Positions 2,648 through 50,608 of a stretch of 64,000 nucleotides of DNA are shown piece by piece. Source of the stretch: Tetradesmus obliquus (lineage: Eukaryota; Chlorophyta; Chlorophyceae; Sphaeropleales; Scenedesmaceae); assembly GCA_030272155.1 (NCBI GenBank), contig CP126191.1:7524501-7588500 (forward strand), read 5' to 3'. Numbering within the stretch: the first letter of the stretch is position 1; every line of letters begins with the position of its first letter. The notes below the pieces were generated by a model, which had not been told where the DNA came from, did not search any database, and saw only the letters and a list, made by a program, of their open reading frames with translations. The translations under genes and the position numbers were made by a program.

Positions 2648-4009
2648 CTGCAAACAGTCAACAAACAATTGCAACGGCAAACAGATCAGCGGCAGCATGT
2701 ATGTGCAACACAGTGCACCACACGGCCAAGGTGACTGCAAAACACAAGAAAGCATCGCTGTGCTGTAGGCAAGTTGTGTCAAGCCTGTGCTGGAAGCCCG
2801 CCTTAACTGCAGCCTGCACAGTGCTGGATGGCGCAACCACAGCACCCACCTCGTGCTCTCTTGTTATTGCCACTGCTCAGCCGATATCTTCCTTTGCTGC
2901 TCTTCTGTGACCTGTGAAGCATGTGCAACAGGTATTATCGCTGCATGTGGGCTGCACACACTGCACGATGCCGAAAACGCGCCGACCTTGAAACAAGCAG
3001 TACGCCTTCAAGAACGCTCAAAGTGTATAGAAACATCCAACTGAATGATAAGCACGAGTACGAACAGCATGAGGTGCCCGCTTGGTGTGTTGCCTTGTGG
3101 TGAGGACCACCAGGGGCAGGTCGGCCCACCCCTGCAAATTATAATCCCGAACCTGGCATGCAAGGTCATTCTTCACCACTGCTGACACAAACTAACAGTT
3201 AAAAATTACAGGTGCACGCTATGGTTGAGCGTGGTGGCTGTGCACACATGCATTTCAACAAGCCGCTTGTGTTTCCTGCTTGTGTGCAAGTGAATGCCTG
3301 CAAGGTCATCCATGGCTGCATGTAATTAAATCTTTGAACTATTGCTGCAGTCAGTGGTGTGAGTACAACTATGGTGTCTCTGAAGAATGCTTGTGTACGC
3401 AACAGCAACCCAGACATCAGTTCCCTGCTCAAGCTGCTGGCACTGAACTGCTGATGCCTTTTGCGGTTGCTGGAAAGCATGAGGTGCAAGGTAGCTCCTC
3501 ACCTGCTGGTGATGTGCAGCAGATGCTGCTGTAGGGCTTTGCGAAGGCGGCAGCTCACATGATTGCTGCTGCAGAACAGCCCACACCATGAGACACTAGC
3601 ATGCCTACAGGCCCGTCTAGCTATAGTGTCTGTTATGCTGTCTACATCCATGCTGAGACACTTGGTGGCACTCTGAAAGCGCAGTTCATGCAAGCATGCT
3701 CCAACGTGCTGCAGTGTTCTGAAGAAGTTGCCCAGTCCAAGACGCGCTGAAACGTAGCATGAGTGATTTAGTCCGAAGAATTGTTTCTGTTCGGCGAGAC
3801 TGCGCATTCTTGTTCCATGGCGTGCTTAAGCTGTACTTCAGGACAACAGTCAGCCAGGGTTTGGTGTGCGGCTTGCCGTCTCAGGGTCCGCTGTGCGTGC
3901 GATATTCGCCAACAACACCACAACTGAGGGATTTTGGGATCGATTTTGTGTTTGCTTATGAGGCTCGACACAGCTGACGGGGAATCATACACATGGCGCC
4001 CATCTTGCC
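2648..4009. other. Intergenic; no supported gene
   Basis: This stretch must hold the missing first exon and promoter of the ankyrin gene (probably 2650-2950). Beyond that I see only short frames without domains or matching splice phases. Confidence 0.4.
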
Positions 4010-4218
4010 TCATGACGGCACTGTGTTGTGCTGTGACTTGTGCTGGATGCAAGAATGGGTAAGAAAGACCCACTGACGCCACCATCAGCCACGGCATCAG
4101 CGTGAACATAATCTACATCCACAGAGGTCACCCTTGCCTTCGTATGTGATCAAGAAGAGCCTTTCTTACCCATTTTTGCATCCAGCATAAGTCACAGCAC
4201 AACACAGTGCCGTCATGA
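4010..4218. repeat. 58-bp inverted repeat (long hairpin) at the 3' end of the TWINKLE-helicase gene
   Basis: The arm at 4010-4067 is the reverse complement of 4161-4218 over 58 bases with two mismatches, separated by a 93-base loop. The right arm overlaps the stop codon of the minus-strand helicase gene (4215-4213), so the gene's last codons and 3' UTR would fold into a stem of about 58 bp. It could be a small hairpin element or MITE, or a source of small RNA. I see no clear target-site duplication. Confidence 0.8.
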
Positions 4219-7200
4219 GCTGCTGGCAAACTCTGCACTCTCCGCTGCCTGCGCCATTGCTGGCTCCTTGCCAACCTCCTCCTGCTGCTTGTGCCCCTCC
4301 CACAGCTCAGCACCATAAACAGATTGCACCTGCTGCCCCTGCTCCCCAGCACCAGCTGCACCCAAATCTACCACCTCCAGGCTGCCAGGGCTGTCTGTAT
4401 ACACTGGAGCATCATCCAGCAGCCCCCTCCTGTCAGGCGCCTCATCAGGCTCGTGATACCTGCCAGTCGCTCGGTCATACACCAGCACACACTGGCCCCT
4501 GCTGCCCGTGGTCTTGTTGCGCACCTTCTCCACTATCACCTGCACCTCAAACTCCGCGTTATGCAGCGCCTGCTGCTGCTGCTCCTCGCTCACTGCAGCC
4601 TGCCCATCCCCTGCTGCCGCTGCTGCATCGCTGCTGTTGCCGTTGCTGGTGTGCGGCAGTGCAGGCCGCCGCTTGCCGCTGCTGCTGCCGGCCGCCTTGT
4701 CAGCTGCCGCGCGCTGCTGCAGCTCCTTCAGCTTGGCCCAATTCCTGTGCACGATGATCCCGTTGTCTGTCTTGTTCATGAAGTTGGCGCCGCCTGACAC
4801 GTCCTGCAGGCCGGGGCGCTCCCCGCGCCACATGTTGCCCATCTGCCGCGGGTGCGCCACCAGCCAGCAGTGCACGCCGTTCTCGCGCGCGAAGCGGCGC
4901 AGCAGGCCCATGAGCTCGTTCACGTGCTCGTGCTCCTTGGCGCTGCCTGAGCTGCGGGTGGGGTCCAGCTCATTGTAGGGGTCGATGATGAGCCCGCTGA
5001 TGCCAAACCTGCAGCGGTGAGTGCGGCACAAGTGGCGGGTGAGACTGGTGTGTAAGGTGCTCAGCAAACATCAGCCTGTGCCTGTGCAGGTCAGGTAGTC
5101 TGCATGCAGCAGCAGCTTCCTACTGCGCAGCGTGGTGGTCACTGCACAATAGGCTGCCGGGCAACGGAGCGCAAGTTCCAGCACACTGTTGACTGAGAGG
5201 TTGCAGATGGCATGTGCACAATAGGCTGCCTGAAGGCACGTGAATGCAGTCATCACATCAGGGCAGTCCATGGCCCTGGAACTCATCAGCCAGCCGCAGT
5301 CATCTCGGCACACAAAAGTAAGCTCTGCTGCATGCTATATGCTGCTGCTCACTGTATCTTGGCTGCCTTGGCCTTCTCCAGCAGCCAGGCCATGCTGGGC
5401 ATGCTGTCCTCGCCGCTGGCAATCACGAAGAAGTGGTCACACAGCTGCTTGTAGGCCAGGTCCAGCTCCTGCGCATGACACAACACACACACAGCAGGAG
5501 GAGGCATAAGTTGCTGTTGCACCATTGCAGTCAATAGCAAACGTGGACAACAGCAAGCAGACAATGCTTTGCATGACTTCACGCTACATGCAGCAAGTCC
5601 TGCGCTACCTGCGTGGAGCCCCACACGCCCTGCTGAGCCAACGTTTCAACACGCAGGCATCCAGCACGCCAGCCCGCACCAGCGCTTCAACCGTCGTCAA
5701 CTATCAATCTGCTGCTTAACACCAACAGCAAACGTGAAACCTACATACATGCGCGCTCCATGCTGTTGCCACTGCCGCCGCACCTGCAAGCTCATGCGCG
5801 GCACCTCGCCAGCATACCCAGCAGACAGCAGCGGCCGCCGCGCAATCTTCTCCAGCAGCTGCCGTGCATGATCCCGCGGGCGCTTCTCCATGCTGCACAC
5901 CGCAAAGCGCCAGCCGTGGTCCAGCGCTAGGTTGACCGCCAATGCGTCCAGCCACTCGGACTTGCCGCTGTTGGGTACGCCCGTCACCAGCGTCACCTCG
6001 CCCGGCGCAACCTGTGAGGGGTTTGAACAGCAGAGTGGGGGAGTGCAAGTGGCGAGGGCGGCAGTAGTTGATGATAAGGCAGCACGGCAGCGTGGTGTGG
6101 CCAGCGTAAGCAGTAAGCAGATCATGCATGAGGGTGAGATCTGCTGGTCTAACAGGTTGTGTGACGGTTGCCAACTCCAGCAAGTCGTGCACAACCAGGC
6201 AAGTGCATTGACCTGTGCATGGAAATTGACCTCAGGCGCAACCAGCAAGGTACAACTGCAGGGAACGGCACGTCTGCTGCGCTGCCGCTGCTGTTGCTAA
6301 TCGTTCCCCACCCGTTTATGATTCGCTCCTTGCCTGTGTCACCCCGTCCACATACGCCCGCAAACCCACCTTGTAGTACTCGTCCAGGCTGGGCCAGCCA
6401 GTGGACAGGGCGATCTCGTCCATGCTGGGGATCTGGTAGTAGGTGAGCAGGTCGTACGCATAGTCGGAGAAGCGCTCCAGCCCCGCAATGGGCCACACGT
6501 ATGCGCCCTCCACAGCAGCAGCAACACCCTGCAGCCCCTGCAGCTCCGCCAGCAGCAGCACATCCCAGCCGGTGCCCTGGCCAGGCGGCGCAGTGGGGTC
6601 AGCCAGCAGCTCCGACTGCAGCGCTGACAGCTGCTGCTGCAGCAGCTGGTGCGGGTCTAGCTGCTCCTGGTCTAGCGCAGCCTCAGCTGCTGCTGCTGCC
6701 GCCGCCGCAGCTACGTCAGCTGGGTATGCATCAGGCCACTGCATGTGCCTGCAATGCACCTCACCCAGCAGTCCTGCAAGGTGGCTGGCGACCAAGCTGC
6801 TGCAGCTGCGCTCATGCCCCTGCGGCATCGCGATCACAGCTGTGCTCACAGACGGCAGCAGCAGCGACAGCCCCGATGGCGCCGGCTGAGCCACATTGCT
6901 GACCATCAAGCCCTCTACCTCAAACCCTGGACTGCTGCTGCTGCTACTTCTGCTGCTGGCCTGTGATTTAGCTGCTCCTGCTTCGTACTGCCGCCTAAGC
7001 TTCTCTAGTTCAGCTGCTAAGCCAGACAGCCGCAACCTGGGGTCCTCAGGTATGTGGCGGTGCTGCTGCTGCTGGCGCTGCCACTGCTGCCGCTGCAGGT
7101 GGGCCATCTGCTGCCGCTGCCGCAGCTGCAACACTTGCTGCAGGGGCGACAGCTGTCCTATACTCTGCTGCTGCTGCTGCGGCTGCTGCGGCTGCTGCAC

Positions 7201-9115
7201 ACTGCCTGTGTCGAGCCAGACAGGCGTCTGCTGTGTGACAGCGATGGCTGCACAGCCAGCTGCAGACAGCAGCAGCGCGTCCAGCTCACAGGTGACAAAC
7301 ACCACGCTGGACGCATCCTGCACACGCGCCACGGCGATGTACAGATCCATCGTTGTACATGGAGTAGCTTGAATTTTATTGATCAGGGGTTGTGACGCAC
7401 AGGCAAGCAGGCCAGCGGCTGTCCATGCACGCTCCTGCAGCAGCTGGGGCACCAGCGCACACACCCAATAAGTGATCACACGTAAGATGATGCATGACAT
7501 GTCACCCCAAGCTTCTCCACTGGACACAGAATATGCAACCACTGGACCCAGAATCTGCTGCCTGGCCTGCGCAAAACACACCTGCAGGCCGCGTGGCATG
7601 TACAGCTCCCTCGCCCCCACCGCCAGCCAGCTGCCGGCCAGCTGCCCGCCCTGCAGCAGCAGGCAGCGCATGTCCACCAGCGCACCCCGCCGATAGTAGG
7701 GCAGCGCCAGCACCTCCACCTGGCAGTAGCAGCAGCAGCAGCAGCAGGGACATGAGGAGCAGGGTATCAAGCATTGTTTGCGCTGTGGCGTCCGCGACCT
7801 TTAGGGCTGCACTCGAGGCGCTACACTTGCGCACTGCAGCCCCAGCATGCTGTGATGCGGCGGCTCAAAGTACGGCGCATATGGCACAGCCAGCAGCCTG
7901 ACAGCAGCCAGGACAAGGCACCCTGCATGACAACATGCTGCTGCTTTCTGTACTAGTACGGCCAGCGCCTTCCTGCAAGCCACCAAGCCCGGCAGCTCAC
8001 CAGCTGCTTGGTCTCAGGGTGTGGCACAGTAGCCATGCCTGCACCCCACTGCTGCAGCACTGCGGTGCTGATGCCCAGCTGCCCGCACCAGGCTGCAGCT
8101 GCAGCAGAAGGCGGCTGGCTGGGCGGCTGCAGCGCTGCTTGCGGCCTACTGCTGAACTTGTTGCGCACAGCGATGTCAAACTCACTGCTGCTGGCTGCTG
8201 CTGCTGCTGCTGCCGCTGCGGCAGCCGCAGTGGCAGGCTGCTGCTGGCCAGCTGCTGCTTGCTGGGGGCCTAAAGTTGCAGCAGTGGGTCCTGCGTATGC
8301 AAAGCAGCGTGTGTTTCAGTAACCGGTGCACCGGACTGGGATTGCAGTGCCACGCAAACGCTTCTGCAAAGTCACGAAAAAAGGACTGCACACCACTGGC
8401 ACTGAACATGCAAAGGCTCACCTAGTGTCGTCCCTGATGTTGGTGGTGACTCTCCCGGCGCACTATACATGTCTTTCCGTGCTGTTGACGCCCCTGCAGA
8501 CGGCGTGCTGCTGCTGCTGCTGGCCTGGCTGTCACCAGCTGAGGTGGTGCTGGAGCGCCTGGGGCGCGGCCTGGCCCTGGCGGGCTGGGGCGGCAACAAA
8601 GGCGCTGCATATTGCTGTTGCTGAAGCTGCTGCGGCAGCGGCGGCGGCTGCTGCTGCTGCTGCTGCTGAAACAGTGGCTGCTGCAGCGGACTCTGTTGCG
8701 GGTACGACTGCTGCTGCTGCTGAAACAGTTGTGACACAAGCTGCGGGTTGCTGCTAGTGGCGGTGCTGCTTTGAGCAGCTGGCTGCAAGAGTCCAGCCAC
8801 AGCTGCATCCTGCTGCGTTTGCTTGCTGCTGCTACTGGTCCTGGTCGGTTTGGGCTTTCTGGCTGGTGCGGCAGTGCCGTTGGGGCTGGCTGGCACCGCT
8901 GCCGGGACTGAAACATCATTCTGCTGTGCTGCTGAGAATGTTGACAGCATGCGCCCTCTCCGCAAGTGCCCAGCTGCTGCATGCGCATACAGTTTGCTGG
9001 CCTGCAGCCACCTGGCAGCAACAACAGGCACAACACACAGCAGAGGATGGTTGCACGCCGCCAGCATCAGCCAACATGCATGGCTACCGCCAGACCACGA
9101 AGGGCAAGCTGTCAA
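4213..9115 (-). CDS. TWINKLE-type organellar DNA helicase with a degenerate TOPRIM primase domain
   Basis: Seven exons: 9115-8422, 8290-8001, 7719-7582, 7317-6370, 6011-5784, 5468-5353, 5008-4213; about 1069 aa, all phases consistent. Residues 1-60 are Ala/Arg/Ser-rich, like an organelle transit peptide (start at 9115, or a later in-frame ATG at 9067). A long Gln/Ser/Pro-rich region follows. Near residue 300 a segment (GISTAVLQQWGAG) and EVLALPYYRRGALVDM match the primase core of plant TWINKLE. The TOPRIM is eroded: the VEGE motif is VTCE (about residue 383), and the DxD site reads AVIAMPQG (about 535-541). The RecA-like helicase is intact: Walker A GVPNSGKS (about 701-708), CSMEKRPRDHARQLLEK, Walker B GLIIDPYNELD, HCWLVAHPRQMG, and TDNGIIVHRN. 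No CxxC zinc finger is present. Role inferred: replicative helicase of mitochondria and/or chloroplasts, unable to prime by itself. It is divergent from the primase-only paralogue at 9816. Confidence 0.88.
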
Positions 9116-9815
9116 ATGTTGATTTGTGCCAGTGCATGCACAATCAACGGCTTGACAGACGCAGACCTTGATGATGCTCCTGCTGCTTCAGCTGCTGAAG
9201 CTGCATGGCCAGCTTGGTTGCAGGCGCCTCTAGTGATCGGCAGGCCAAGCATGAACCTAGAGATGGACCCAACTAGAAAGCTCCTTATGCAAACAACGTG
9301 CATACTGCTGATGCATGTCCAAAGTGCATGGTGCTGCTGTGGCTGTGTGCTAAGAACTGCAGTGTTGTGCTGATGACAGGGCTATGAAGGCTGCTGATGC
9401 TACAGCTTCACAAAATGATGTGAGTAAACGGTGTACTTCACTAGCAGCCTTGTGCGTATGCAGAGCTTGTCCTGTAGCAGTTGCGAGACGACTGACATGT
9501 AACACGGCAGTCAAGCTCACGAAGAGTGTGTACACTCCGCGGAAACAGCTGCGAAATCTTATGTTCAAGAACTGGGCTGCCGTTTATGCGCACTCGATCT
9601 ACCGCTTGTGGACACCGACCATTGAACTCCCCGCCTTTTTGTCATTTGTTTGCAAGCAAGCAGCAGCTCGACATCAGGCCAGCGCAGCTCCCATCACTGC
9701 GCTACCAGCCCATGATCATACGCTTGAAGCTCCTTGACCCACTTTAGCAAGGCTTCAGTGCTCTTGCAGCCACTGGCAGGGGGCAGCCTGCTGCTGTGCG
9801 CCAGCAGCACTGCCC
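9116..9815. promoter_or_regulatory. Shared upstream region of the divergent TWINKLE-helicase and TWINKLE-primase genes
   Basis: About 700 bp lies between the two start codons (9115 on minus, 9816 or 9915 on plus). No third gene is supported. It must contain both 5' UTRs and both promoters. I cannot point to a specific TATA box or operator, so co-regulation is inferred only from geometry. Confidence 0.55.
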
Positions 9816-12800
9816 ATGCCAGTAAGCATAACACAACTGCCCACCCAACCGTGGCCATTGCTGAAACAGCAGCAACAGGTTCAACAAGTTAAGAGACAGA
9901 CGCTTTGTTGCATCATGGTTACCAGCCTGCACAGTCAAGCGCATCACTTGCAAGCTGCACTGCGGCGCCAGTTTTGCAGCAGGCCGCTCATTGTGGCACA
10001 AGCAACAAGCACAGCTTGCTACCAGCGGTGCCTGCTACAGCCGTATACAGTGCAGCCGCACAGGGAGGCCCGTTATGCTTGCAGGACAGCGTCAGGTGTC
10101 TTCCTTGCACACCGACAGCAGGCAAGGTGTGTATGCAGCCGTGCCACCTCTGGGCCTGCAGCCAGCAGCAGCGGCAGCACCAGTAGCAGCAGCACACGTG
10201 GCAGGTACCGCAGAAGCAGCAGGATGACAGTGAGCACTGCACCTGCAGAGAGCAGTTCCAGCACAGCACAGCAGCTGCCGGCCCAGCAGGAGGTCTTCAA
10301 TGTGCCTACAGGCACAGCAGCACAGCAGCAGCAAGTCGGCGGTTACGCAGCCGGCCCTCTGCCGCTCGGCACGCTGCTGCTGCAGCAAGAACAGCAGCAG
10401 CAGAAGCAGCTGCAGCAGTTAGGTTGCTTGCTCTTGAGCCAGCCAGCACCTGCTGCTCACCCAACTGGTGCAGAAGCCGACATATGGCAAATGCAGCAAC
10501 AAGCAGCGCCTCAATCACCGCCGCCGCCGCAGCAGCAGCAGCAGCAGCGGCAGCAACAGAGCAGCACGCAACCCCCGGCACTGACAGCACAGCGGGCCCG
10601 CACCCGTATGGTACCTGTTGCGCCTCCCGCTGCTGCCGACCTGCCTCGCCGGTTGCGCTACAGCGACTATGCGGTGCAAGCGTCTGCAACCTCTGATGCA
10701 GCAGTTGCGTTCGGCGCAGACCAAGCAGACAGACTGCAGGCATTGGCTGCTGCTGCAGCAGCTGACAACGTGGCAGCAGCCGCTGCAGCTAGGGCCCGCA
10801 ATGTGGTAGCAGCAGCGTCCACAGATGTGGCAGTGCTGGAGGTTGCTGCGCCACGCACTAGGCGGCGGCGCACCTCAACAGCAGTATCCGCTGATGTAGC
10901 AGTGCTGGAGGTTGCTGCTGCACGCACCAGGCGGCGGCGCACCTCAACAGCCAGCAGCAGCAGCAGCGACAATAGTGAAAGCGTGAGCAGCAGCAAGTCC
11001 AGCGGCAGCAGCAAAAAGGGCCCCATAGCTGGAAGCAGCAGCAGCAGCAGCAGCAGCAGTGGGAGCAGGAAGCAGCAAGGCGCCGGCAGCAAGCCGGCTG
11101 CCTGTAGCAGCCTTGCAGGCGCAGCTGTCACGCTGCCACCTGTGCACTCTGGCTCAGAACCAGGCAAGTCTGCCACAGCAGATGCTGGCGGCAGCATGGC
11201 CCGGAGTGACGCGCATGCGCTCAGCCCATATACTGGTGCTGCGCCTGCTTCTGCACCTCGCCAACAGCAGCAGCGACAGCCGCCGCATGCACCTGTGCCC
11301 TCCTGTGAACAGCAGCAGCAGCAGCAGCAGGTTGCGCAGCATGACACAGAGCAGGGTGAAGAACAGCTGCTGCTGGAGCTGCAGGAGCTGCTTGCAGCCA
11401 GGGATATCCAGCTGCCTGAGCTGCGCTTTGGCCAGCAGCGAACCCTGTGCCCTCATTGCCAGGGCGGCAGCAGCCGTGAGGACGGCTTTGCGATCAAGCT
11501 AGATGATGCCGGCACTGCCATGTGGATATGCCACAGGGCTACCTGCGGCGAATCGGGAGGGGTGACAGTGCGCAGCAGGCAGCGCAGGTCCAGCAGCAGC
11601 AGCAGCAGCAGCGGTGGCGGAGGGGTTGGTGGCAGCAGCAGCGGCTGCGGCTGCTACAGTGCAACTGCTGTGGTGAAGCAGCAGCAGGTGAGGCGGGGCG
11701 GCCTGCTTGCTGCAGCGTTCATGCTTTGTTGAGTGCGTACACCGTGGGTGATTTGCCCAGCATGTTCAAGCATCTTGCTGCAAAATGCGAACCTGCAGTA
11801 CCTGAGTACCCAGCACATTCCTTGCTCTTGAGGATCCTCAAACCGCTGGCTGCCATCTGGTCATGCATACATGCGTGGGTGCACGGTGCAGGCTGCTGCT
11901 GTGCCGCCAGACACGAGCCGGCTGCAGCCACTGAGCAGGCAGCTGCTGGACTGGCTGGGCTCGCGCGGCATCAGCCAGGCTGTGCTGCACCGCAACCAGG
12001 TCATGATGGAGAGCAGATACTGCAGGTGAGCGCGGCTGTGTTTATTTGTGGCGGCTTGCCTGTGAGGCCGATGTCTGCCAGCCGTGCTCGCCTCAACTGG
12101 CACGCTTGCTGTGCAATACTGTCTATGGGGCACTTGCCAGCAGACGGCAGCAGCACAGCATGCTGCGTGTCTGCTGGTGTTATATCTGCATCTGGCACCT
12201 GCCTGCTTTGCCTGCATTGCATAACAAGGCAGCAAGCGTCTCAGCACACGGTGTCCTGGTCCCTCACCGCGCACCCACCACTGCCTGTCATCTGCCCCCT
12301 GCCGTCTTGGCCAGGTCGCTGGGCGCCTGGGTGGATCACATTGCCTTCCCCTTCTTCAGTGGCGGCCGCGTCGTCAACATCAAGTACCGCGCACTGCCCA
12401 AGCACTTCCAGCAGTCCCCCAAGGGCCAGCAGGTCTTCTATGGCCTGCATGACATAAGGGTGAGCCTGCTGCTGCTGCTGCTGCTGCTGTGACACACAAA
12501 GGATAGAGGGCACACCAGCATCTTGTGGATCCACATGGTGGCGCCACGGCTTCAAGAAGTGCAGCGTCATCGTGTACTCTGAGCGCGGTGCTGCAGGCAG
12601 TGCAGCAGGTCCCCAATCCCTTTAAGTGGCGCAGCTGCATCGGCTGTATCTTGTCCAGTTCAGCGCGTGCAGGCGTCAACGCCGGGCCCCACCGCCGCAT
12701 TTCAGCACCCTGTGGACCCAGTTGCAGCACACCTTGGCTGTGTCTCCGCCATAAACGAGCCGTAGCATCGCTGCGGTGCAGCAGCCGCACCAACTGTGGC

Positions 12801-13396
12801 TTGCTGCTGTGCCCCTGCTGTCCTGCCTGCCTGTCCTGCAGGGGGACGCTCCGGCAGTGCTCATTGTGGAGGGAGAGCTGGACAAACTGTCAGTGGAGGA
12901 GGCCACGGGCGCAACAGCCGTCCTTAGCGTGCCCGCAGGAGCATCAGCACCCCCAGCATCCCGCCAGCAGCAGCAGCAGCCGGACGCCGCACAGGCATCC
13001 ACCGCCAGCGCCGCCAGTAGCAGCAGCAGCAGCAGCCAGTCCCTTGCTTGGGGTGACCGGAAGTATGCCTATGTGCAGCATGCCCTGCCGCTGCTGCAGC
13101 ACTGCTCACATATAGTAATTGGCGTGGATGCTGACGCTGCAGGCTGGCACACCGCGCAGCAGCTGGCAGACAGGCTGGGCAGGGGCCGCTGCTGGTACCT
13201 TGCCTGGCCAGCTGCAGGGCCGGCAGGGGCAGCAGCGCTGCAGCGGGTTGCCGCTGCTGCTGCTGCCGAGGGCATTCAGATGGATGTTGCTGCGGGGCTC
13301 GGCTGCAAGGATGCAAATGACCTGCTGCTGTGCTACGGCAAGCGGGTGCTGGCACTGTATGTGCATGAAGCGCCTGTGCCTTTTCCGCTGCAATGA
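9816..13396 (+). CDS. TWINKLE-derived primase without helicase (zinc finger plus intact TOPRIM)
   Basis: Exons 9816-11687, 11892-12025, 12315-12459 and 12842-13396 join in frame (about 901 aa; 868 if translation starts at the ATG at 9915, whose product MVTSLHSQAHHLQAALRR looks more like a transit peptide). Residues 35-520 are low complexity (Gln, Ser, Ala). Near 545-577 a primase zinc finger is clear: CPHC, 20-odd residues, then CHRATC. After it come RQLLDWLGSRGISQAVLHRN and HIAFPFFSGGRVVNIKYRA, typical of the T7-like and TWINKLE primase core. The TOPRIM has both catalytic sites: LIVEGELDKLSVEEA (about 724-738) and IVIGVDADAAG (aspartates about 813 and 815), followed by CKDANDLL. The protein ends 40 residues later with no helicase domain, like Arabidopsis TWINKY. 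Inferred role: organellar RNA primase working with the helicase-only paralogue encoded head-to-head. Confidence 0.88.
10822..10959 (+). repeat. 69-bp in-frame tandem duplication within the primase gene
   Basis: Two adjacent 69-bp units encode near-identical 23-residue blocks, DVAVLEVAAPRTRRRRTSTA and DVAVLEVAAARTRRRRTSTA plus three residues each. They lie in the low-complexity linker before the zinc finger. The repeated Arg-rich patch could contact nucleic acid or be a second basic targeting signal; that is inference. Confidence 0.85.
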
Positions 13397-25371: not shown

Positions 25372-27834
25372 TCAATACGTACAGAGCATGCGGCCAAGTA
25401 ACTCTGTGTAAGAAAGTATGAAGACTTGTGCAGGGGATGCAGAGCCAAAACGCCAGTTGTGTGTCAAACGCACATACTGGAAATCCAGCGCTGCCCACAC
25501 TGAACTTTCAAATGCATACTTAGTTGGATGCTTCACATAGGATGCATCACGACCCTTGAAGTTCATGTCTTGCACTGGCGGCAGCTGCAGGAAATCTGGC
25601 ACAGTTATGAAACGAACTTCACGTTGCCTAATCTCGCGTTTAGCTATTAAGCCATCGCACAAGTTGGAAAGGAACTCTCCATTTGCCAAACCAGCTTCAT
25701 CAACAAGCATGCATTGCACACCGCCATCACCGCGTACACCCCATCTTTTTTGCATCAGGCGCCATGCGCCGCCACAGCGTCGCAGGTTCACCCTGTCCTC
25801 TGCCAATGCCTGACGCACTGTAAACTGTTGTCCCATTTCTCAGCAATTGTGCTGCAGCACCAGTCATGGCCGTGTTCCAAAAACCACGCACACCATACTT
25901 GGCAACCATGATTATGTATATCACTTTGTTGATCACCTGTGTTTTGCCATTTCCTGCATCCCCAGATACGCACAGGTTTCCGTCACCCTGTAAGAAACCA
26001 ACTAGTCTCTCCAACTCCGCACGGCTCTGTGCATTTGGAAAAGTGACACCCTCAGCTTCTAAGGCTGCTATGCACGCAGCTGACACACTACGCGCAGCAT
26101 GTGCGCCGTTGCCGTTCTCCAAACCACCACCGCCATCACCACTATCTGCTACATCACTGTCTATCATGTGCGCAGCACCTGCAGCACCGGCCTCCATGTC
26201 ATTGCTTTGCAAGCTGTCAGAAACAACAATTGCAGCAGAGGCCGGCTCCGCCTGCAAATTGCACAAGCGGCCCCCACACACACCGGCAGCAGCACTGATG
26301 CCATCACCCGACACACCACCATCCCTGGGTGCATTCACGGCATCATCAACAGTTGCACCACAGCATGGCTGACTGTCGAGAATTTCACAAACCTCAGGCG
26401 CAGGTCTAGGCTGGCTAGCGCCACCAGCCGCAGCACTGACGCCCTTACCAGACACACCACCACCCCTTGATGCATTCAAAGCAGCATCAGCAGTTGCACC
26501 ACAGCATGGCTGACTGTCGAGAATTTCACAAACGTCAGGCGCAGGTCTAGGCTGGCGAGCGCCACCAGCCACCACATCACTGCCAAGTAAGCAGTCAAGA
26601 TTCAAATCTGCATCTGTGAGCAGCCCTGGCAGCACATGGCACATACCGCCATCACCTGCATCAGCAAAGACTCCACCGTCAAACCCTGACATACATGCCC
26701 TTGCATTGTCAAGCAGTGCATCAAGCTCATCATCTGTTGCAATACAAGAAGGCTGGCTATCAGGAATGACACATACTTCCGGCGCTTGCCTCTGCTGGCT
26801 GATGGCAGCACTACACACAGCCTTTGTTATAACAACATCGCTGCCATCACTAGGTAGCGAGCAAGTGTCACTAGCAGAACCACCACGTTGTGAAGAAAGC
26901 TTCACGCCCATTGGCGACACACCACCAAATTTATCAACCACCAACTGGGCTGCCTGCCTAACAGCTGCAATGGCAGGACTCAGCACTTGAGCAATGAGAT
27001 CCCCCATGAACATGTGTGTACTCAGCACGTTTAACCCCTGCAAACACACATCAAGACGTTGCCACGCAGCCACCACAACAGAAGGCTCCAAGCAGCTCAG
27101 AACGCCATCCTCTGCATGCAAAAGCAGATGGTCATTAACAGCTTTCACACAAACGCTCATGACCATGCTAAATCGTCCATGTGCAAGCTTTCTCTCGCTT
27201 GTGCTTACACCACTAGTTGCAAACTCTACCAACACACGCAGCGCACAACTCATGAAGGCAGAACCATTGTCTAAGTGCTGCATGACGTCATGCGAAAGCA
27301 GTGCTGACATAAGCCGTTGCATGCGACTCAGCACTAGCTGGTCCACCATCACAGTTTCCTTGGCATGATTGCTGCTACCAGCAAGAGCACAGCATGAAAG
27401 TGCAGCCCCACGCCAACCAAACTTCAGCTTTTTCAAATTGAACGGACCTGCTAAAGTGAAAGTGTATGTGCCGCCTTTGAAACGACCATGTTGCCGCACC
27501 TGGCCATGATCAACCAGACATGACTTGATGCGTGCAAGAACACCCCACATCGTCAGCTGCTCCGTGTTTGGCTCCCATGCATCATGCCAGGCTGCAGGGC
27601 GCACTCCATCTTCAAACAGGTACGCATCTGGAATCTTGCCACGACTCAGCCACAACTGGAAGAACTTTCCAGCGTCACTAACGCCAGTATCACTCTTACC
27701 AAAAATCGCCGGCACACACACATCCGCAAACACTGGCTGCTGCATAGGGTCATCGCTGAAAGTGGCATCGATCCGCACATGCATGCGATTTTTGCCATTG
27801 AGGCGCCGCAGGGACACACGCTTGGACGCAGGTT
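25372..27834 (-). CDS. PIF1-type helicase module of the large recombinase-helicase gene (frameshifted, C-terminally short)
   Basis: This is the last exon (acceptor ...ggtgcag at 27835) of the long minus-strand gene. Its first 370 residues are unrecognised helical sequence. Next come repeats of about 47 residues built around VCEILDSQPCCGAT (26330-26570). The helicase follows: Walker A SGDAGNGKTQVINK, SASGIGRG, Walker B MLVDEAGLANG, motif III PDFLQLPPV, and RLTHNW. Two frames must be joined across a run of six A (plus-strand T at 25746-25751), where one base too many breaks the frame. The protein stops soon after LTHNW, so helicase motifs V and VI are missing. With an intact frame it would resemble PIF1-family 5'-3' helicases that accompany eukaryotic mobile elements. 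Decay or a sequencing error are both possible for the frameshift; the short C-terminus favours decay. Confidence 0.7.
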
Positions 27835-27989
27835 CTGCACCACAGCAGCAGCAGCATCACATGTTTAGTTGAAAAGGCGCAGCAGCAAGCAAGCACACAG
27901 CAAGCATCGCACACACTCAGCTAGACAACAGTTATACCAGCTTCACATGTATCTATATGCACAACCACCAGACCCCTCATGGTCTGAAC

Positions 27990-30073
27990 CCATCCAGCAG
28001 TCCCACAAGCACTGCAAATCCTGCCCACCCGCAAGTGCAACTGCACGAGCAGCGTGAATATTGTCTACATGAATGGGCACATCAATCAGCCGTGGCAGCA
28101 GCGCCTCTACAGATTTATTGTAACCCATGCGCCCAAAGAACACAGGTGGCTGCAACTGCGCTGCAGCCTCCACACCAGCCTCATAGGCTTGGCCCTCTTG
28201 TTCAGCCCATGAACGCCGCACAGACCCAACATACATGTCACCCAACAACGAGAGTCGTTGCACCAGTGCTTGTTGCTCATGCATAGCAGAAGGAAGCGTG
28301 AAATAAGTAACAGCATCATTCAACAATGTGCGAGGTGCCTGGTATCTATCGACAGGCACAAGCTCAGAGCAACAGTTAGCAGCCTTCAACAGCGCACACA
28401 CACTAGCATTGTATAGTGCACGCACATCGCCAGCAGCCTGCAGAGCACGCATGCGACATAACCAAGGCAATCGCATCGGCCGAGGGCCTCCTGGATTGGG
28501 ATCAGTTATAGCCTTTTTGGGCAACGGCAGCTGCACACCCATGAACGTATTTAGACGAGCCGCCCAAATGTCAGCATCGTCGCACTCACCAAAGGCCAAG
28601 GCAGTGACGTTCAAGTACTCATCGAGTGCAAGTGACTCGTACACAGTCCGCAAGGTCACTGTTCCGTCCTTCACAGACCAGCCACCCCACCGCACAGCAA
28701 CATTTTCAACACCACCATCAATTCGCTTGCCACGATTTTCCAGCAAGTTAGTTATTAACACACGGGAGACGCCGCCAGACCGGTGAGCCCTGTGCCCTCT
28801 GGGTGGACTGCCCATGCGAGTCAAGAGCCGCCGTGTACTATCAGAAACATGGCTGGGAGCCAAGGGCATGCAATCCAATGGAACATCCCCTTCAGTTTCA
28901 CAAAAGAGATAGTAATCAAAGCACTCTTCCTTTATTGGGAGGCAGTCACCTGCCTTAGCAGACAACAGTGGGTTGCCGCCCACATACGCATCGCGGTACA
29001 CCAACAAACTATACAAGTATGTTGACGCTGTCAGCCCAGCATGCACCCAAAAGTTGGTCCAACCTTCAAAAGACTCTCGCACACGCCGCAAGCCGCGCTC
29101 ATCCATGTACTTTTCATCAGCAAACTCTATGCAAAACTTGGAACAAGAACAGGTTGGCCACTGGCATCCACCACTTCTTGCACTGTCACATCAACAATGT
29201 CACACAGCCGGATGCCAGCATATGTGCGGGCCCTGCGACCTCCAAATATGCAAGACAGGTTCCACAAGGCAGCATCCTGCAGACCCCGCAGACTGTTTGT
29301 GTCCACAAACCTGTGACCGTTGCGGGCTTCCTGCATTGTGACAAATGCCACCTTTTTCACAGCTTTTTTGTATTGTTTGGCCATGATCAACCGCATACGA
29401 CGATCAACACATCTGTGTAGCACACTGGGATCCAATGACTGCGCAACCATCAACACACCGTGGTGGCTGCACTCAACAGACAGCTTGTGTCTGCCGATGC
29501 ACGCCACAGAGTTCAGGATAGACGCATATGCACTGTAACTGCTCACCCAGTCACGCACAAAGTGGTGGAAGCCCAGCCACACCTGCATCGAAGGTGGCCA
29601 GTGTTGCACTAACACCTTGCCCTGCATCTGCATGCCACAGTGGCCCTTTGCAGCCTGCTCTTCAACAATAGAGCTACAACCCAGGAACTCCAGCCACATC
29701 CCCCACGCACGATCATGGTTGTGTTGCCCAGCCTTGGTGCACGCCTTGTTTGCAGAAAGAGCCATCTCCACAAAGTGCATCGCAACACGCTCCTTGCCAG
29801 CAGCCTTGTATGCACCCATGCGAGCACCCGTTGCATCACCTGCTAGCGACACTGCAGGTGGTCCCACATTCCCACTAGACGGGGCGTCTGGGGTGCCAGA
29901 AGACGATGCCGGGCATGACAGCAGCACCACAGGGCCATCTGCACCCGCATCATGCAGACCAGCAGCAGCGCTGCTAGCTGCTTTGCACGCAGAGCGCTGC
30001 ACGCCAGTGCCCTTGCCACCTTTTGAGCCAGTACCAAAAATTGCAGCAGCAGCTTGCTGTCCTTGGCTCAAAC
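27990..30073 (-). CDS. Tyrosine-recombinase-like (Crypton-like?) module of the large gene, with a one-base frameshift
   Basis: One long exon follows an acceptor (gtcgctgcag) and a phase-1 intron. It has a possible N-terminal DNA-binding part (RAWGMWLEFLG) and a helical core. A catalytic-domain-like region includes GGRRARTYAGIRLCDI (candidate first Arg), VSRVLITNLLENRG (second Arg, with the usual His of HxxR replaced) and GGWSVKDGTVTLRTVY (candidate nucleophile Tyr). That order and spacing fit tyrosine recombinases such as Cryptons, but my assignment is by eye and moderate. The frame breaks at 29137-29143: the upstream frame stops at VLVPSFA, while the next frame reads KFCIEFADEKYMDERG. One missing A in CCAAG would restore continuity. 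The donor is probably ATGG|GTTCAG at 27990 (phase 1), which joins the helicase exon. Confidence 0.55.
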
Positions 30074-30301
30074 CTGCAGCGACGGCACAACAACCAAGCC
30101 CACAACGTATCAGCAATTACTACTGAACTACACTGAGCAGCAATTGTGTGCTTGCAAGCACCAGCAAAATCCCACCAGACTGCAGATGATGCACACATGC
30201 ACATCTGCATCAAACACAACAAACAACAGCAGAGTTGCGCAATTGACATTCCAATAAAAAAACTTCACCAAATTCATGTCAATATATATGCCGCAGCCCA
30301 C

Positions 30302-33300
30302 CTGTGTCAAATGCGACAGCACCAGTGTTGGCGGCAGCAGCAGCAGCAGCCCCAGGACTTGGGACACCAAGGCCACCAGAGCTCTCATTGGAATGCTTGG
30401 TGCCCGCAGGTGACTGCCGCTGCACACCTGCACACACAGCCACCACAAGTACAGCAGCGACATCAAAGAAGCACAAGCGCACTGCACGACAGCTGCTGAG
30501 TAATGTGCATTCGAGCCCTCATGAGCGCCCCTCGCAACTGTTATACAGTAGCATACATGCATGAAACATTGAACAGCACATGTTACTTTTGTACACGGTG
30601 GAGACGCGATGTGCCCCAGAACTTACCAAGGTTGCCAGGACGCAGGATATTAGCCACTTCAGCATCAACTTGTTCCACAACCTGGGCTGCAAACATATTG
30701 GGATGGGTAGCAAGCCGTATGTTGCTGCACAGCTTCTTCTGTGGTAACGCTGCAGAGCAAAAAGAAGCACAAGGCAAACACAGTTTTATTACAAAGTGTG
30801 CCGAATCATCCCTCAGTGCAGCACAGCATACAGAATGGAGGCTCGTGTTACATACAGCAGCAGCACATAGCCTGCATGTGCCAACTATGCTGCGCTCACC
30901 AGCAGCACCGCCAGCAGCCGCCACCCGTGCCACGCCACGCGCATCAGCAGCAACAGAAGCTGCTGCGGCCAAGCCAGCAGAGTCCACAGCAGCAGTATTG
31001 CCACCACACCCTGACAGCTTCAGCAAGCGCTGGTTGGCACCTGCAAGCAGCACCATGCACATGATATCAGCGCACAGGACACCAGCATGCATTGTTTAAA
31101 CTGTACAGCTGCAACAGTACCCAGCAAAGCATGCGACAAGGTTCAAACATGCCATCATCAATTGCCACACAGTCGATGTGCAAGTCGCAACAACAGATGT
31201 AGCAATGGCCTCACCTGCTAACATTGCAGCATTGCTGGGCATTCCCGGCAAGTTGAAGTCCTGCACAGCATCAAGACGCCGCTTGGTGCCTGCGCTAGCG
31301 CCACTGCCGCCATCGCCAGCTGCGCCATTTGTGTCAGCAGCAGGGACAGCAGTAGCAGCAGCAGCAGCACCTGCAACAGCGGGGGTGAGCAGCACCCAGG
31401 TCAACAACAAAGAACAGCACAAGGCACCATTGCAGGCCAGCATTGCAGTGCGCCAGAACAGCGCCAAATAAGCAGGACAAAGCATTCCTGTGCAAGCAAA
31501 CGGAGCACAGCACAGTTGCTGTGAGCAGAAAGCAGCAATTCTGCAAGCACCGACCAGCACACGACATGAACGCACTGGACACCAGCATGCAACAGAATTC
31601 AGACATGCTTCACATCCAATGCCACCAGGAGATGCTGCCATCTTTCTAAATCGAAAAACATATGCAATGGCCCCACCTGCTAACACTGCAGCATAGCTGC
31701 GCATGCCCGGCAAGTTGAAGTCATGCACAGCATCAAGACGCCGCTTGGTGCCAGCGCTAGCGCCGCTGCTGCAAGCGCCAGCTCCGCCGTTTGCATCACC
31801 AGCAGCCCTCTTTGGGGCCGCCGCTGTGCCAGTAGCAGCAGCAATGGCAACAGCAGCACCTGCCACAGCATGGTTTAGCGACAAATACACAGGTCAGCAA
31901 ACCAAGCAAACACAAGGCACCATTTCAAGCCAGCTCTGCAGTGCGCCAGCAGCTTGCCCAATGAGCAGCAACCAGCATTTCTGCGCATCAGGACAATACG
32001 CAGCATATAACCAAACAGCAGCATTACAGCAAATCGCAGTGCAGCACAAATACATTGTAAAACACCGGCAACCAAACAATGCTTCATACAGCAAGGGCAC
32101 TTTACAGCCCAAACACGCACCGTTGCAAGCCGGCATTGCAGCACGCCAGTGCCGCGCCACAACGCCCGCCACCACCGTCCGCCCTTCAGACGAGCCGAAC
32201 AGATCCTTGCGCTGATGGTGATCTTCAGGCAGCAGCTGCAGTTTGAGGTCCACTGGCAGGGGCACCGCGGCAAAGTGGTCTCCAACGTTTAAGCAGGCGA
32301 TGACCTCGTTGTTGGGGATGACCATTGCGCGTTGCAGGTCAATCTCCTTGCCAGGCGGGGCAAAGATCTGCCCATGACACGTTGCCACAAAGCCATGGTA
32401 ACCATCAGGCGCTCCCGCCACAGCCGGCGTCAGAACCACTACGAATAGCTGGTGCGCCACCGCCATGCAGCGCCCAACCATGTCAGGCAGCATATACTCT
32501 TTGGCCTGGATGTCAGCACGAGTGCTGCGCACCTCGAGCAGCTCAGCAGTTGCTGCAGCAGCGCGATCAGCAGACCCGCCACCACACAGCACCTGCACAC
32601 AAAACAGCATTGCAGGAAAAACAGTGCGTCAGCAGTTCAACAAGCACAGCCAGGTAGCGCAGCAGGCCAGGTCACACACAAGCAAGCTACCGTAACAGCA
32701 AAGCATGACGCCCGCCCGCTAGTCAGAGGCTGTAAAGCAAAGTTACAAAACTGCCAGGTATCAGTTGCAAACCAAGCACAACCACCAAGCAGCCACAGCA
32801 CACAACCGCACCTGCTTCAGCTGTTCCTCCCTGAAATCCAGGTGCTTGCACATCTCCCCGACAAGCATATCACTGTACAGTTCCAGCACGGTTGCGGGGT
32901 CTGTTGGCCAGCTCTGCTGCACAGCAGCACCATCTGCCTGTGCAAGCACCGCCACCAACGTTGCATTCGCCAAGCACTGGAAGTTCCTGGTTGAAGCGCT
33001 GAATGCATTGAGCTTAAGTGCCGCCAGCGACTGAGGATATGCAGCCATCTGATCTGTAGCATAGGTTGCGAACTCAGCGTTGGCATCAAACACAGCGTTC
33101 ATTGTCATCTCTTTAGCTGACACGAGCCCGTAGTAGTCATTATCCTGCAAGCAAGACAGCCAGCAAAAAGGATAAGCGTCGCATTTCACTCAGTACATGA
33201 CTGCAAAAGCCAAAGCAGTTATCATACACCGAATTGCATTATTTGCATGAGCATGTTGTTGCTGCTGGCATACAGTGCACACATCTGCGTCATGACAGCA

Positions 33301-40879: not shown

Positions 40880-43800
40880 TTACTGCTGACGCTTTTTCTT
40901 TGTGGCTGACGGTGCCGGTGTACCATTCTGCTGCTGCTGCTGCTGCTGCTCTTGCCCCTGTTCCGTGCGGGACTTGGCCTTTTTCTTCTCCTTTGTCTTG
41001 CTGTGATGCTGCTGCTCCTGGCCGCCTGCAGGGCCCCAAAACTTGCCTGCCCATGCCTCCACATCGCCAACCAGCGGTTTCAGCTCTGCAGCTGCTTGCT
41101 GCTCCACTGTCGGCACGCCACAGTGCAGCAGTCCTGCAAGGACCTTTTCGGCATGGCTGCCCACCAGCTGCTTGCACTGCCCCTGCAGTGCCTGCTGCCA
41201 GAGCTGCTGTGCAAATGCACGCGCGCCCGCTCCATCTGGCCCTTCGCCGCCACCTGCCAGAAGCAGTCTCCGCAGCGCACGGCTGGCAAACCACTGCGTC
41301 AGCAGCGGCTCCTGCTGCTGCTCAGCCTCCTCTGCATCCTGCTCAGCAGCATCTGCTGCTGCACCCTTGTTTCCTTTCTGCTTCTTCCCCGCTGCTGCTG
41401 GTGCCGGCTGGCTGCTAACTCTGCTGCAGTCTGCAGCAACCTGCTGCACTACTGCTGCGTGCACTGCCTCCACTGCCTGCTGCTGCAGCTCCCACAGCAG
41501 CCCACCTGCTGCACCCCTGGCCACCTCAACCACTACATCTGCAGCAATTTGGCTGCACAGCAGCTGCCCAGCTTGCTCGCCACACAGCGCCAGCAGCGCA
41601 GCAGCAAGGCTGTCCTTGCCGCCAGCAGAGAGCAGCTCTCTCCGCCGCTGCGTGGGGTCTTTTCGGCTCTCGCCCAGCTGCCGCTCCACTAGCTGGCTGC
41701 TGCTGCTACCACCTGCTGCTTCACCTTCACCGTCGGCTGCTGCATCGCCCTCATCTGCCTCTTCTTGCTGCTGCTCCTCTGCCTCATCCAGCATCTCTTC
41801 ATCCTCATCCATGCCTGCTGCTGCAGCGCTGCCGCCACCTGCTGCTGCTGCCGCTGCTGACACCATCATGCTCTTGGCAGGCGGGTGCATCATCTCGTAC
41901 GAGGACTGCGGCAGGTAGCGGTGGCTGTCCGGTGCCAGCAGCTGCAGCAGCACGCGGGCAGCGTGCTTGTTGGTGACCCACTCCTCCAGCTTTGACTGCA
42001 AAGGGAACAGAGGTAGCAGCCAAAAGGAGACACAGAGCAGAGGTAAGTCCATAGGCCTTATTCAATAAGTGGCTGACTCTGAGACCAGTGTACCTTACGT
42101 ATGCAACAGCCAAACACCAAGATGTTAATTGACTGCAGAAGATTACTGGCATATCTGCATACACACAACAGGCAGCTGTGTGGCTCTCAGCGGTGCTCGC
42201 AAGGAGCGACGACATTCAACATTGCGTCTTCTGTCCGCCCGTCGTTATTTGTCATCACAGAGCCACATCAACGCTGCACAACACACCTGTCTAAGCAACA
42301 AACGATCCACCATCCACAACATCGTTAGCACAGGCTCGTCTCTGCCAAGCACAACAAGGTAAGAACCCACAACCTGCTGCTGCTGCACTATGTAACACTG
42401 GTGAAAGCAGCGCACATGCTTCATTCTCAGCACGCACCTTGAGCTCAGGCAGCAGCGTCTTGCCGGTGAGAGCAGTGTCGTCAACAACCGTCAGCGCCGT
42501 GGCCACCACTGCATGGCCCCACTCGTTCTCCGCTGTCTGCCACACGTAACCTGCAGCAGCAGCAGCAGCAGCAGCACATGGCTGTGAGCGCATGCACTGC
42601 AGGAGTGGTGGTGTGAGCAGGCGCATGCCAGATGCCTGAAGCCTGTGTGCTGGAACCTCTTGCAGAACTGACCGCCTGCCCTGTGCAGCGGAGCTCCCCG
42701 TGCCTGCCAAATGTTATAGCGTTCATAAGTGCACTCCCTTGCAAGCGCACCCTTGCAACCTTTCCCGGACCCACACCCTCAAAGCTGCAGAGCTGATTCA
42801 CATTCATGGGGGGTGCAACAGGAACCTTCAACATCATGCAAAGCCCGCTGCCCTCACCCTTCATGCCCTTCATCAGGCGCTTGCGGTCCTTGGGGGTGCC
42901 GTAGGCCAGCGCCATGCAGGCAGCAGCAGCGCCGTCGTGCGTGTGCACCAGCTTCAGCGCGTTGCCGCCAGCCGCCGCCAGCGTGTCAACAGCGTCAGCC
43001 ACAATGGACCTGCCAGCAGCAGCAGCAGAGCAACGGCAGTGACACCTGAGTCAGGCACTGTGACATGCACTACATGTGAAGTGTTCGAATGTCCAGCAAA
43101 GTATTTGTTGCTATCACCGACAAGCCAGTGCACAGCATGCCAGCGGCCCGCCCCCAAACCCAGGGAACCATCCAGTGCTCTCAGTAGTGCTCGCAAGGAG
43201 CGACGACACTCAACATTGCGTCTTCTGTCCGCCCGTCGTCATTTGTCATCACAGAGCAGCAACCATACCAGCAGACACACCCTGCCACCGGCAAGCACTC
43301 AACCAGGAAACATGCCATACGCACACGCACGTCGGCCAGGCACACATACACAACCAGCCGCCGCCTTTACACCCGTCACGCCAGTACACAAGCCACGCAA
43401 CCCTGCACATAAGGTATACAACCCGCAAACAGCTTAGTAGATCAGCATCCATCCAGCAGCGCTCACCCTGGCGCCTCAGCCAGCAGCTCCCGCAGCAGCC
43501 GGTGCGTCAGCGCGGGGTGCAGCAGCGCCTTCTCCAGCACAGGCGCCAGGCCCTTGTACAGGCTTGCCACCACAGCCTGCCTCTTCTTCGCATCCACACC
43601 TGCCAGCAGCTGTGGCAGATGGCTGATGGAGTCGCTCTGCGCGGACACGCCGCCAAACAGCGTGAACTCGCGGCCATAGAGCTCGCAGCACAGCGTGTTG
43701 CGGCAGGCTGGCGGGCACACGCTGTACAGGTCATCCAGCACGTCAGCGCCTGCAGGGTGGCGCAGCAGCTCAGCCACGTGGCCCCTGAAGAGCTTGGCCA

Positions 43801-49071: not shown

Positions 49072-50094
49072 TCAGCAGCAGCTGTACATGCTGTTGTCCC
49101 ACCAGTTGCCGCCGTCACCGCCTGCCACACCTTGCAGCTGCCAGCTCTCTACTAATGTCTCGTAAAGCTGCCTATCACACACGAAATTGTACAGGTTCTG
49201 CACCACACCCCTGTCAAAGGGCGACCTGTGCGTCACAGGGCGCCCCATGTCCTGCAAGCTGGCTGGGTGATGCCTGCAGCCAGACAGCACCTCATACGTC
49301 TTCCAGTTGCCCAAAATCAGAAACGTGTGGAATGCCAGCAAGCTGAACATCAGCAATGCTGCGAACAGCACCAGCACTGCAAATCCTGCAACTGCTACAT
49401 GCTGCTGCCAGCTCCAGGCGGAGTGTGCTGCATGGCGCACCGCAGTTAAGGCATGGTGCATGCCGTACAGGCACACGCTGGTTTGGGATACCAGGTACAA
49501 GTAGAACCAGCCATGGTTGTGTTGGCCCACATCGCCGCCAAGCCAGTAACAGTGGTGGTCAAAGCCCCTGACACAGATACCACAGGTGCGACAGTGATGC
49601 ACCCTGATTGTGTGCCTGTTGAGACAGGCACACTGCCTGCTGCTGTGTTGGCTTTGGCTGGTGCTGCCTGCTAGTGAGCACAGGGTGGGTCGATCCTCTG
49701 TGTTGGTCTCTATGTCATCAGTGCTGGATGCCAGTACTGTCACGCACACCACGCCACGCCCGCTGCTCAGCTGTTTGCCGATGGATGAGGGTGTAAGGCG
49801 CCTGTTGCCAACAGGCATCAACAGAGGGGAGCTGAAGATGGTGTCTGTGCCGAGCGCTGCATCGTGCAACTTGCTGCGGTGTCTAGCTGTGAAGTTGAAC
49901 AACGTGGTGTAGAGTACTGCGTTGACTGCCAGCAGCGCCAGCAGATGCTGCACTGCCGCCCATCCGCTCTGCTGCCACGCCCTTGCGATGTCTGTGTCCA
50001 GCAGGCTCACTATGGTGTAGGCGCTGCAGCCATGGATGCCATACCATGCAAGTAAGAGCACGTACTTGTCTGTTGCAGTTGTGATGCGCTGCAT
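49072..50094 (-). CDS. DHHC-type palmitoyltransferase-like membrane protein (intronless)
   Basis: A single open frame of 340 codons. Two membrane segments lie near residues 11-32 and 44-67. A cytosolic DHHC cysteine-rich region follows (HHCRTCGICVRGFDHHCYWL, with DHHC at about 179-182), then two further membrane segments (WFYLYLVSQTSVCLYGMHHA and FAVLVLFAALLMFSLLAFHT). The protein ends MYSCC. The family S-acylates proteins at Golgi, ER or plasma membrane through the DHHC cysteine. Oddities: the usual DHHCPWVxNCVG reads DHHCYWLGGDVG, so the Pro and one zinc-binding Cys are replaced; the first CxxC pair is also irregular (CAC). It may be a divergent but active enzyme, or a pseudo-enzyme. It is the only multi-membrane gene here without introns. 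Confidence 0.8.
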   Translation of the reverse strand: MQRITTATDKYVLLLAWYGIHGCSAYTIVSLLDTDIARAWQQSGWAAVQHLLALLAVNAVLYTTLFNFTARHRSKLHDAALGTDTIFSSPLLMPVGNRRLTPSSIGKQLSSGRGVVCVTVLASSTDDIETNTEDRPTLCSLAGSTSQSQHSSRQCACLNRHTIRVHHCRTCGICVRGFDHHCYWLGGDVGQHNHGWFYLYLVSQTSVCLYGMHHALTAVRHAAHSAWSWQQHVAVAGFAVLVLFAALLMFSLLAFHTFLILGNWKTYEVLSGCRHHPASLQDMGRPVTHRSPFDRGVVQNLYNFVCDRQLYETLVESWQLQGVAGGDGGNWWDNSMYSCC

Positions 50095-50608
50095 GGCAAC
50101 TGCTCTGCTGGCTGCTTCCCTGGATGATTAGTGTTGCTGATGTGTCCTGTACTCATTCAACGTCAGCTGAACGAGAGAAGCATCTTCAAGTGAAGCTCGC
50201 TTGTGAAAGCTGGCAGAGAACTTGGAAAGATGGTCCTGTGTAGTGTATGTATCAGTATGACATATGTCTGGCCAGGTCGGACAAGGTCAAACTTCTGTGT
50301 GCTGTTGTCCTTCAGCTGCTTCCATGGCGCAAACCAGGTACCGTCAGGGTCTGGCTGCAAACACCCAAACAAAAGGACCACACTCCGTGACGTACAAGCA
50401 GAGGCATCAAAGACGAGGACAGTGCCTGGTCAGCAGTGCTGGTTAAGGGCCTGACGAGACGTGACATGACAGGCACTACGATCAAGCTTGCTTTTGTACC
50501 CACTGATGCAGCAGTGGTATCAGTACAACATACAGATTTAGATGCACTGCGACGAACACGATTGGCGCTGTCAAATCAGATAAACTTTTGTGTCGCAACC
50601 GGACTGCA
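50095..50608. other. Upstream region between divergent DHHC and lumen-protein genes
   Basis: About 514 bp lies between the two start codons. A minus-strand frame at 50265-50355 (PDPDGTWFAPWKQLKDNS) follows a good acceptor, tgtttgcag, and might be an isolated exon, but I could not place it in a gene. Confidence 0.35.

Follow-up and report, generated by a model that had tools for sequence, protein, structure and literature searches.

How a fused organellar primase-helicase might come apart into single-activity proteins is the question raised by a pair of neighbouring genes in the green alga Tetradesmus obliquus. In a 64,000-nucleotide stretch of its genome (the window; C1:7,524,501-7,588,500), two divergent genes of the TWINKLE family lie head to head, one (H) predicted to encode a helicase with a decayed primase half and the other (P) a primase that ends before any helicase. 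A first-pass annotation of the window had described this arrangement and read it as a complete division of labour, in which TWINKLE has been split into two genes. The pair itself was recovered as described. The split, in the sense of replacement by two genes, is rejected: the annotation had named a full-length TWINKLE elsewhere in the genome among the observations that would tell against its proposal, and a search of the whole genome found one (T) on the same contig. We consider it probable that the alga possesses a three-member TWINKLE family, in which a helicase-only H and a primase-only P supplement a bifunctional T without replacing it. The features of the pair are as follows, in window coordinates; RPD denotes the RNA-polymerase domain of the primase, and the invariant columns are those of viral relatives.

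4213..9067, minus strand: H, TWINKLE-like helicase with a decayed primase half; seven exons, 1053 residues predicted, no internal stop
4455..6410 (approximate ends), minus strand: helicase core of H; 28 of 32 invariant columns, 51% identity to T
6520..8102 (approximate ends), minus strand: RPD/TOPRIM primase remnant of H, with a Gln-rich insert; 5 of 22 invariant columns, motif table, profile match
9068..9914, no strand: spacer between the predicted start codons of H and P; 847 bp, from predicted-start coordinates
9915..13396, plus strand: P, primase-only TWINKLE paralogue; exons 9915-11687, 11892-12025, 12315-12459 and 12842-13396, 868 residues predicted
11430..11575 (approximate ends), plus strand: zinc-finger domain of P, CPHC...CHRATC; tblastn from T, alignment with the zinc fingers of T and of viruses
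12842..13396, plus strand: TOPRIM exon of P, with VEGELD, DADAAG (VDADAAG) and KDAND, then the stop at the linker; AlphaFold2 and Foldseek

All models of H, P, and T are splice predictions; the nine introns of H and P were assigned manually to GT-AG sites, chosen so that the frame is preserved and the homology respected. The start of P was taken at the ATG at 9915 (alternatives at 9816 and 10224) and its stop at 13396. For H, the start was taken at the ATG at 9067 (in-frame alternative at 8950) and the stop at 4213, with exons at 9067-8422, 8290-8001, 7719-7582, 7317-6370, 6011-5784, 5468-5353, and 5008-4213; the fifth exon was ended at 5784 rather than 5745 because the similarity between H and T then runs on without a 13-residue insert. 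An inverted repeat lies at this end of the gene (4009-4067 / 4161-4219; 59-nt arms, 97% complementary, 93 nt apart), its right arm covering the H stop, and a genome search returned only that place, on both strands.

The predicted P protein carries every motif that the first-pass annotation had listed for the plus-strand gene (CPHC/CHRATC, VEGELD, and VDADAAG), and no helicase exon was found for it. Its sequence ends in EAPVPFPLQ, at the linker and ahead of any helicase, so that P lacks the domain expected of a bifunctional TWINKLE and has the layout of a TWINKY-like protein, with an intact zinc finger and TOPRIM and an end at the linker. The protein scores above the family cut-off for Pfam Toprim_2 (E 1.3e-4), and, trimmed of its low-complexity sequence, P finds the T7 primase fragment 1nui (E 4.4e-6). 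An AlphaFold2 model of the TOPRIM exon reached a mean per-residue confidence (pLDDT) of 84; a Foldseek search with it returned nothing at E <= 0.001, the best row being T7 gp4 (E 0.019, probability 1.00); Twinkle of human and of Lates was listed as well. By sequence, P would be capable only of a primase role, through its zinc finger and RPD.

The minus-strand gene presents the complementary picture. Walker A (GVPNSGKS) lies in exon 6011-5784 and Walker B (IIDPYNELD) and the arginine finger (KVRNK) in exon 5008-4213, and the catalytic Glu and the His are likewise present, completing the helicase set. In the TOPRIM, VEGE has become VTCE, the first Glu now being Thr, and DxD is lost. These helicase motifs and primase losses had been noted before, together with the lack of a zinc finger, of which no residues were found in the motif table or by tblastn of the window; loss of the third primase motif, KDAN, was absent from the earlier list. 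H thus has neither the intact zinc finger nor the TOPRIM site of a bifunctional enzyme. An earlier H gene model scored above the cut-off for Pfam AAA_25 (E 1.8e-6), and the H helicase matches one DnaB entry of the PDB (E 3.6e-4). Foldseek returned nothing better than E 1.0 for the H TOPRIM exon. An RPD profile built from T, P, and 28 viral rows, with H left out, scored H at 21.8 bits, and the highest score among 200 shuffles of H was 1.4 bits; the H primase half is still recognisable as an RPD remnant and is not a chance similarity. With its helicase half conserved and its TOPRIM active site destroyed, the predicted H protein would be capable only of a helicase role.

The third member of the family, T, lies at C1:8,098,165-8,102,647 on the minus strand, about 560 kb from P. 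Its predicted protein of 767 residues combines a zinc finger, a TOPRIM primase, and a RecA-like helicase in one chain, as do TWINKLE and T7 gp4, and the motifs checked are all intact (CPAC...CHRATC, VEGEMD, AGDSDGPG, RKDANE, GLPNSGKS, and VIDPYNELD). It matches a PHROG primase/helicase family at E 1.4e-88, and a phmmer search of T against the PDB gave no match. T therefore reads as a full-length TWINKLE. Searches of the whole genome (104.7 Mb, 17 contigs) gave 11 matches with the H helicase as query and 10 with P; the pair H and P accounts for four of the former and six of the latter, T for three of each, and five matches fall outside these genes. Among the five, the two with E < 0.001 (C1:4.85 Mb and C4:3.01 Mb) fall in low-complexity sequence without helicase motifs, and the remaining three have E of 0.03 to 0.64. 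Pfam AAA_25 returned no genome match, although T and H are present, and DnaB_C returned one T exon at E 0.17, below the cut-off, and one other weak place; exon-wise family searches are thus insensitive here, and the failure of DnaG_N to match anywhere in the genome is correspondingly weak evidence of absence.

To ask how each half of these proteins has been constrained, they were compared with viral relatives. A viral scan, of which the best 80 of 577 relatives were kept, and one further search gave 83 loci (L018-L100); L020 was omitted, 42 of the 82 other loci had an open reading frame that passed the filter (at least 450 residues with GK[ST], IDP[YF]N, EGExD, and DAN), and 28 were left after thinning at 80% identity. 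Because of this filter, the viral rows necessarily agree at EGExD, DAN, the GK of Walker A, and Walker B, whereas DxD and the zinc cysteines are unfiltered. Among the RPD columns invariant in the 28 relatives, T keeps 21 of 22 and P 20 of 22, and H only 5 of 22; among the invariant helicase columns, T keeps 31 of 32 and H 28 of 32. Terminal branches (LG+G4) are 0.52 for T, 0.60 for P, and 3.67 for H in the RPD tree, where a further branch of 0.33 is common to P and H (bootstrap 40); 0.60 for T and 1.00 for P with the zinc finger included; and 0.39 for T and 0.95 for H in the helicase tree. Pairwise RPD identity is 46% between T and P, 26% between P and H, and 24% between T and H, and the helicases of T and H are 51% identical. 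One viral relative among the best 80, a 4.3-kb IMG/VR contig, is 56% identical to T in the helicase segment, closer than H is. We read the P primase as clearly constrained, yet evolving faster than that of T, and the H helicase as constrained though also faster than T's, the H primase half being released. This domain-wise pattern points to selection acting on a single half of each protein rather than to simple decay, although the faster rates leave some doubt.

The first-pass annotation had taken a phase-0 intron just before the TOPRIM, common to both genes, as support for an inverted duplication. The intron is real in both P and H, but T has it too (R/GDAP and Q/DASS in the pair and K/GADD in T, with the slash marking the intron), so it does not establish that one of the pair derives from the other, and as proof of inverted duplication it is rejected. 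It was probably inherited from a common ancestor of T, P, and H. The approximately unbiased (AU) test keeps all branching orders, with p of 0.66 for (P,H), 0.42 for (T,P), and 0.12 for (T,H). Other introns, compared by hand counts, point no single way: P and T each have a phase-0 intron slightly before the RPD, in a stretch that is not exactly alignable, and H and T have in common the intron at YK/V (phase 0) and a phase-2 intron before FGI/YGI. Within the RPD, an intron occurs in P and in H and none in T; the two lie 16 bp from each other, differ in phase, and are not counted as shared. The KY/V intron of T is missing from both P and H, which fits loss or gain. At the DNA level, exon-level similarity was seen between T and P and between T and H; the P-H matches are short, and among those inspected the strongest coincide with triplet-repeat stretches. 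An inverted-repeat scan gave 51 pairs, and the P-H pairs among the 25 for which sequence was given are triplet-rich. Because H has its own primase remnant, it is unlikely that one gene was simply cut in two by an inversion of its 5' half. Inverted duplication followed by complementary loss is a possible but unproven origin.

On the reading preferred here, T is the ordinary bifunctional organellar primase-helicase. For P, the likeliest role is to supply an organellar polymerase, in trans, with RNA primers; for H it is DNA unwinding, either as a homohexamer or in mixture with T. Import of both H and P into organelles is probable: among their first 40 residues none is acidic, and 4 in P and 5 in H are basic. 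The 847-bp spacer, as judged from the predicted start positions, is a possible shared divergent promoter and may drive or co-regulate both genes.

Several observations weigh against functional roles for H and P beside T. Starts and splice sites in their models are predictions, the GT-AG intron ends being there by construction, and the charge of the first 40 residues is the only pointer to organelle import. The H helicase has evolved about 2.4 times faster than that of T (0.95 against 0.39), with four of 32 invariant columns missing, and P is faster than T over zinc finger and RPD (1.00 against 0.60), its RPD branch of 0.60 following the 0.33 shared with H; relaxed constraint is thus possible for both. 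In Arabidopsis, whose TWINKY is a primase-only copy of TWINKLE, the activity of that protein in the plant is unconfirmed according to a 2019 review, which states that no TWINKY work has been published and that the gene may be a pseudogene (PMC6843274), and unpublished data cited elsewhere describe TWINKY mutants without a discernible growth defect (PMC6554949). The fast rates and the silent mutants are also what would be expected if H and P were functionless, decaying remnants of former full-length copies, as are the long low-complexity stretches in both and the inverted-repeat hairpin that overlaps the predicted H stop. Frames of 1053 (H) and 868 (P) codons, however, stay open across the predicted exons, and the losses follow domains, the retained columns being those of the RPD in P and of the helicase in H; we regard such decay as quite unlikely. 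Domain content, motif losses, uneven constraint, and the existence of T can all be read from the sequences themselves; the supplementary roles proposed above are inferred.

Other functional arrangements deserve weighing. H and P might form a dedicated two-subunit primosome beside TWINKLE, a phage-type fused enzyme re-split into a co-regulated, DnaB/DnaG-like pair acting in trans in a single organelle or at one life stage, with T serving the other. The complementary losses and the head-to-head genes with their short spacer fit this idea, the 27 exon matches to family-A polymerases in the genome would accommodate more than a single organellar replisome, and in Arabidopsis the zinc finger and RPD prime even if physically separate (PMC10557236). 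On the other hand, T alone could supply both activities everywhere, and a sister relation of P and H is only one of the orders that the AU test retains. This would be a special form of the supplementary family, so the confidences in the two overlap; taken by itself, we think it unlikely. Overlapping in the same way is the suggestion that H joins T in mixed rings as a subunit unable to prime, so that each ring has fewer active primase sites and H is a regulator more than a replicase of its own. Rings of this kind, as in T7 gp4, assemble through the helicase core, which H keeps at 51% identity to T, but much of the interface could have diverged, and we hold this to be very unlikely. Finally, a helicase exon of P or a zinc-finger exon of H could have been missed. 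The gene models are predictions, and tblastn with T as query also missed the H primase remnant and one H helicase exon. When the whole window was searched in this way with all three proteins (E 0.05), the P zinc finger and most of the H helicase were recovered, but neither a helicase exon downstream of P nor a zinc-finger exon upstream of H was detected, which makes an artefact scarcely credible. The three-member family, with H and P supplementing T, is the reading that we prefer.

Known systems offer points of comparison. Arabidopsis has a full-length TWINKLE (At1g30680) and, nearby, the truncated primase-only TWINKY (At1g30660) (PMC3610141; PMC6554949), which is without a helicase domain, its end falling close to the linker (PMC3610141). 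In described layout, this matches a bifunctional gene with a primase-only copy; in Tetradesmus, however, an additional helicase-only copy stands head to head with the primase-only one, and the full-length T is about 560 kb off. Another 2019 review describes the zinc-finger and RNA-polymerase module as functional in vitro (PMC6963530). Metazoan Twinkle has helicase activity only, owing to sequence changes in its primase domain (PMC3610141), and resembles H in keeping a decayed primase region, a likeness drawn from description and not residue by residue; here the helicase-only form coexists with full-length and primase-only copies. T shares its domain set with phage T7 gp4 and viral primase-helicases, and P aligns to 1nui; phage relatives were found in 249 records. 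T7 has one bifunctional protein, whereas two single-activity paralogues are found here in addition.

A further comparison is with Chlamydomonas reinhardtii, for which two TWINKLE genes are listed, Cre12.g503150 and Cre12.g514950 (PMC4166229, Table 1). Their names place both on chromosome 12, much as T and the H/P pair share a contig. The source lists them by name, and its accessible part mentions no primase-only label and no divergent neighbour; the two genes may include relatives of H. No helicase-only TWINKLE from a green alga is described in the titles and abstracts of the papers listed by the literature searches, whose coverage largely excluded subscription papers.

Further observations concern the replication genes of this genome and the rest of the window. 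Family-A DNA polymerases gave 27 exon-level matches in about six clusters (C1:4.62 Mb, C1:7.94 Mb, C3:3.84 Mb, C4:2.77 Mb, C9:0.08 Mb, and C9:2.09 Mb). This is more than expected for organellar polymerases and Pol theta, and the number may point to expanded organellar replication genes. One match to Herpes_UL52 (PF03121), a family that covers PrimPol, lies at C3:7223488-7223610 (E 4.9e-4, above the cut-off) and marks another possible primase. Within the window, 25727-31893 (minus) holds large open reading frames in a stretch of skewed composition, possibly a mobile element, one of them with a PIF1-like helicase match just under the Pfam cut-off (E 2e-5). A DHHC palmitoyltransferase (E 3.4e-23) lies at 49072-50127 (minus), and a CPL (NUC119) domain protein (E 1.2e-7) at 40880-42061 (minus).

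The unusual anatomy of the locus is, on the evidence of sequence, real: both single-activity forms coexist with the fused enzyme in an expanded TWINKLE family. Replacement of TWINKLE by two genes, as first proposed, is not what the data show. Should H and P prove active, this alga would have parcelled out the two activities of a fused organellar replication enzyme to single-activity copies and kept the fused form as well; one cell could then serve to test the need for coupling of priming and unwinding, as well as the existence of organelle-specific primosomes. Such activity would also bear on whether plant TWINKY is functional.

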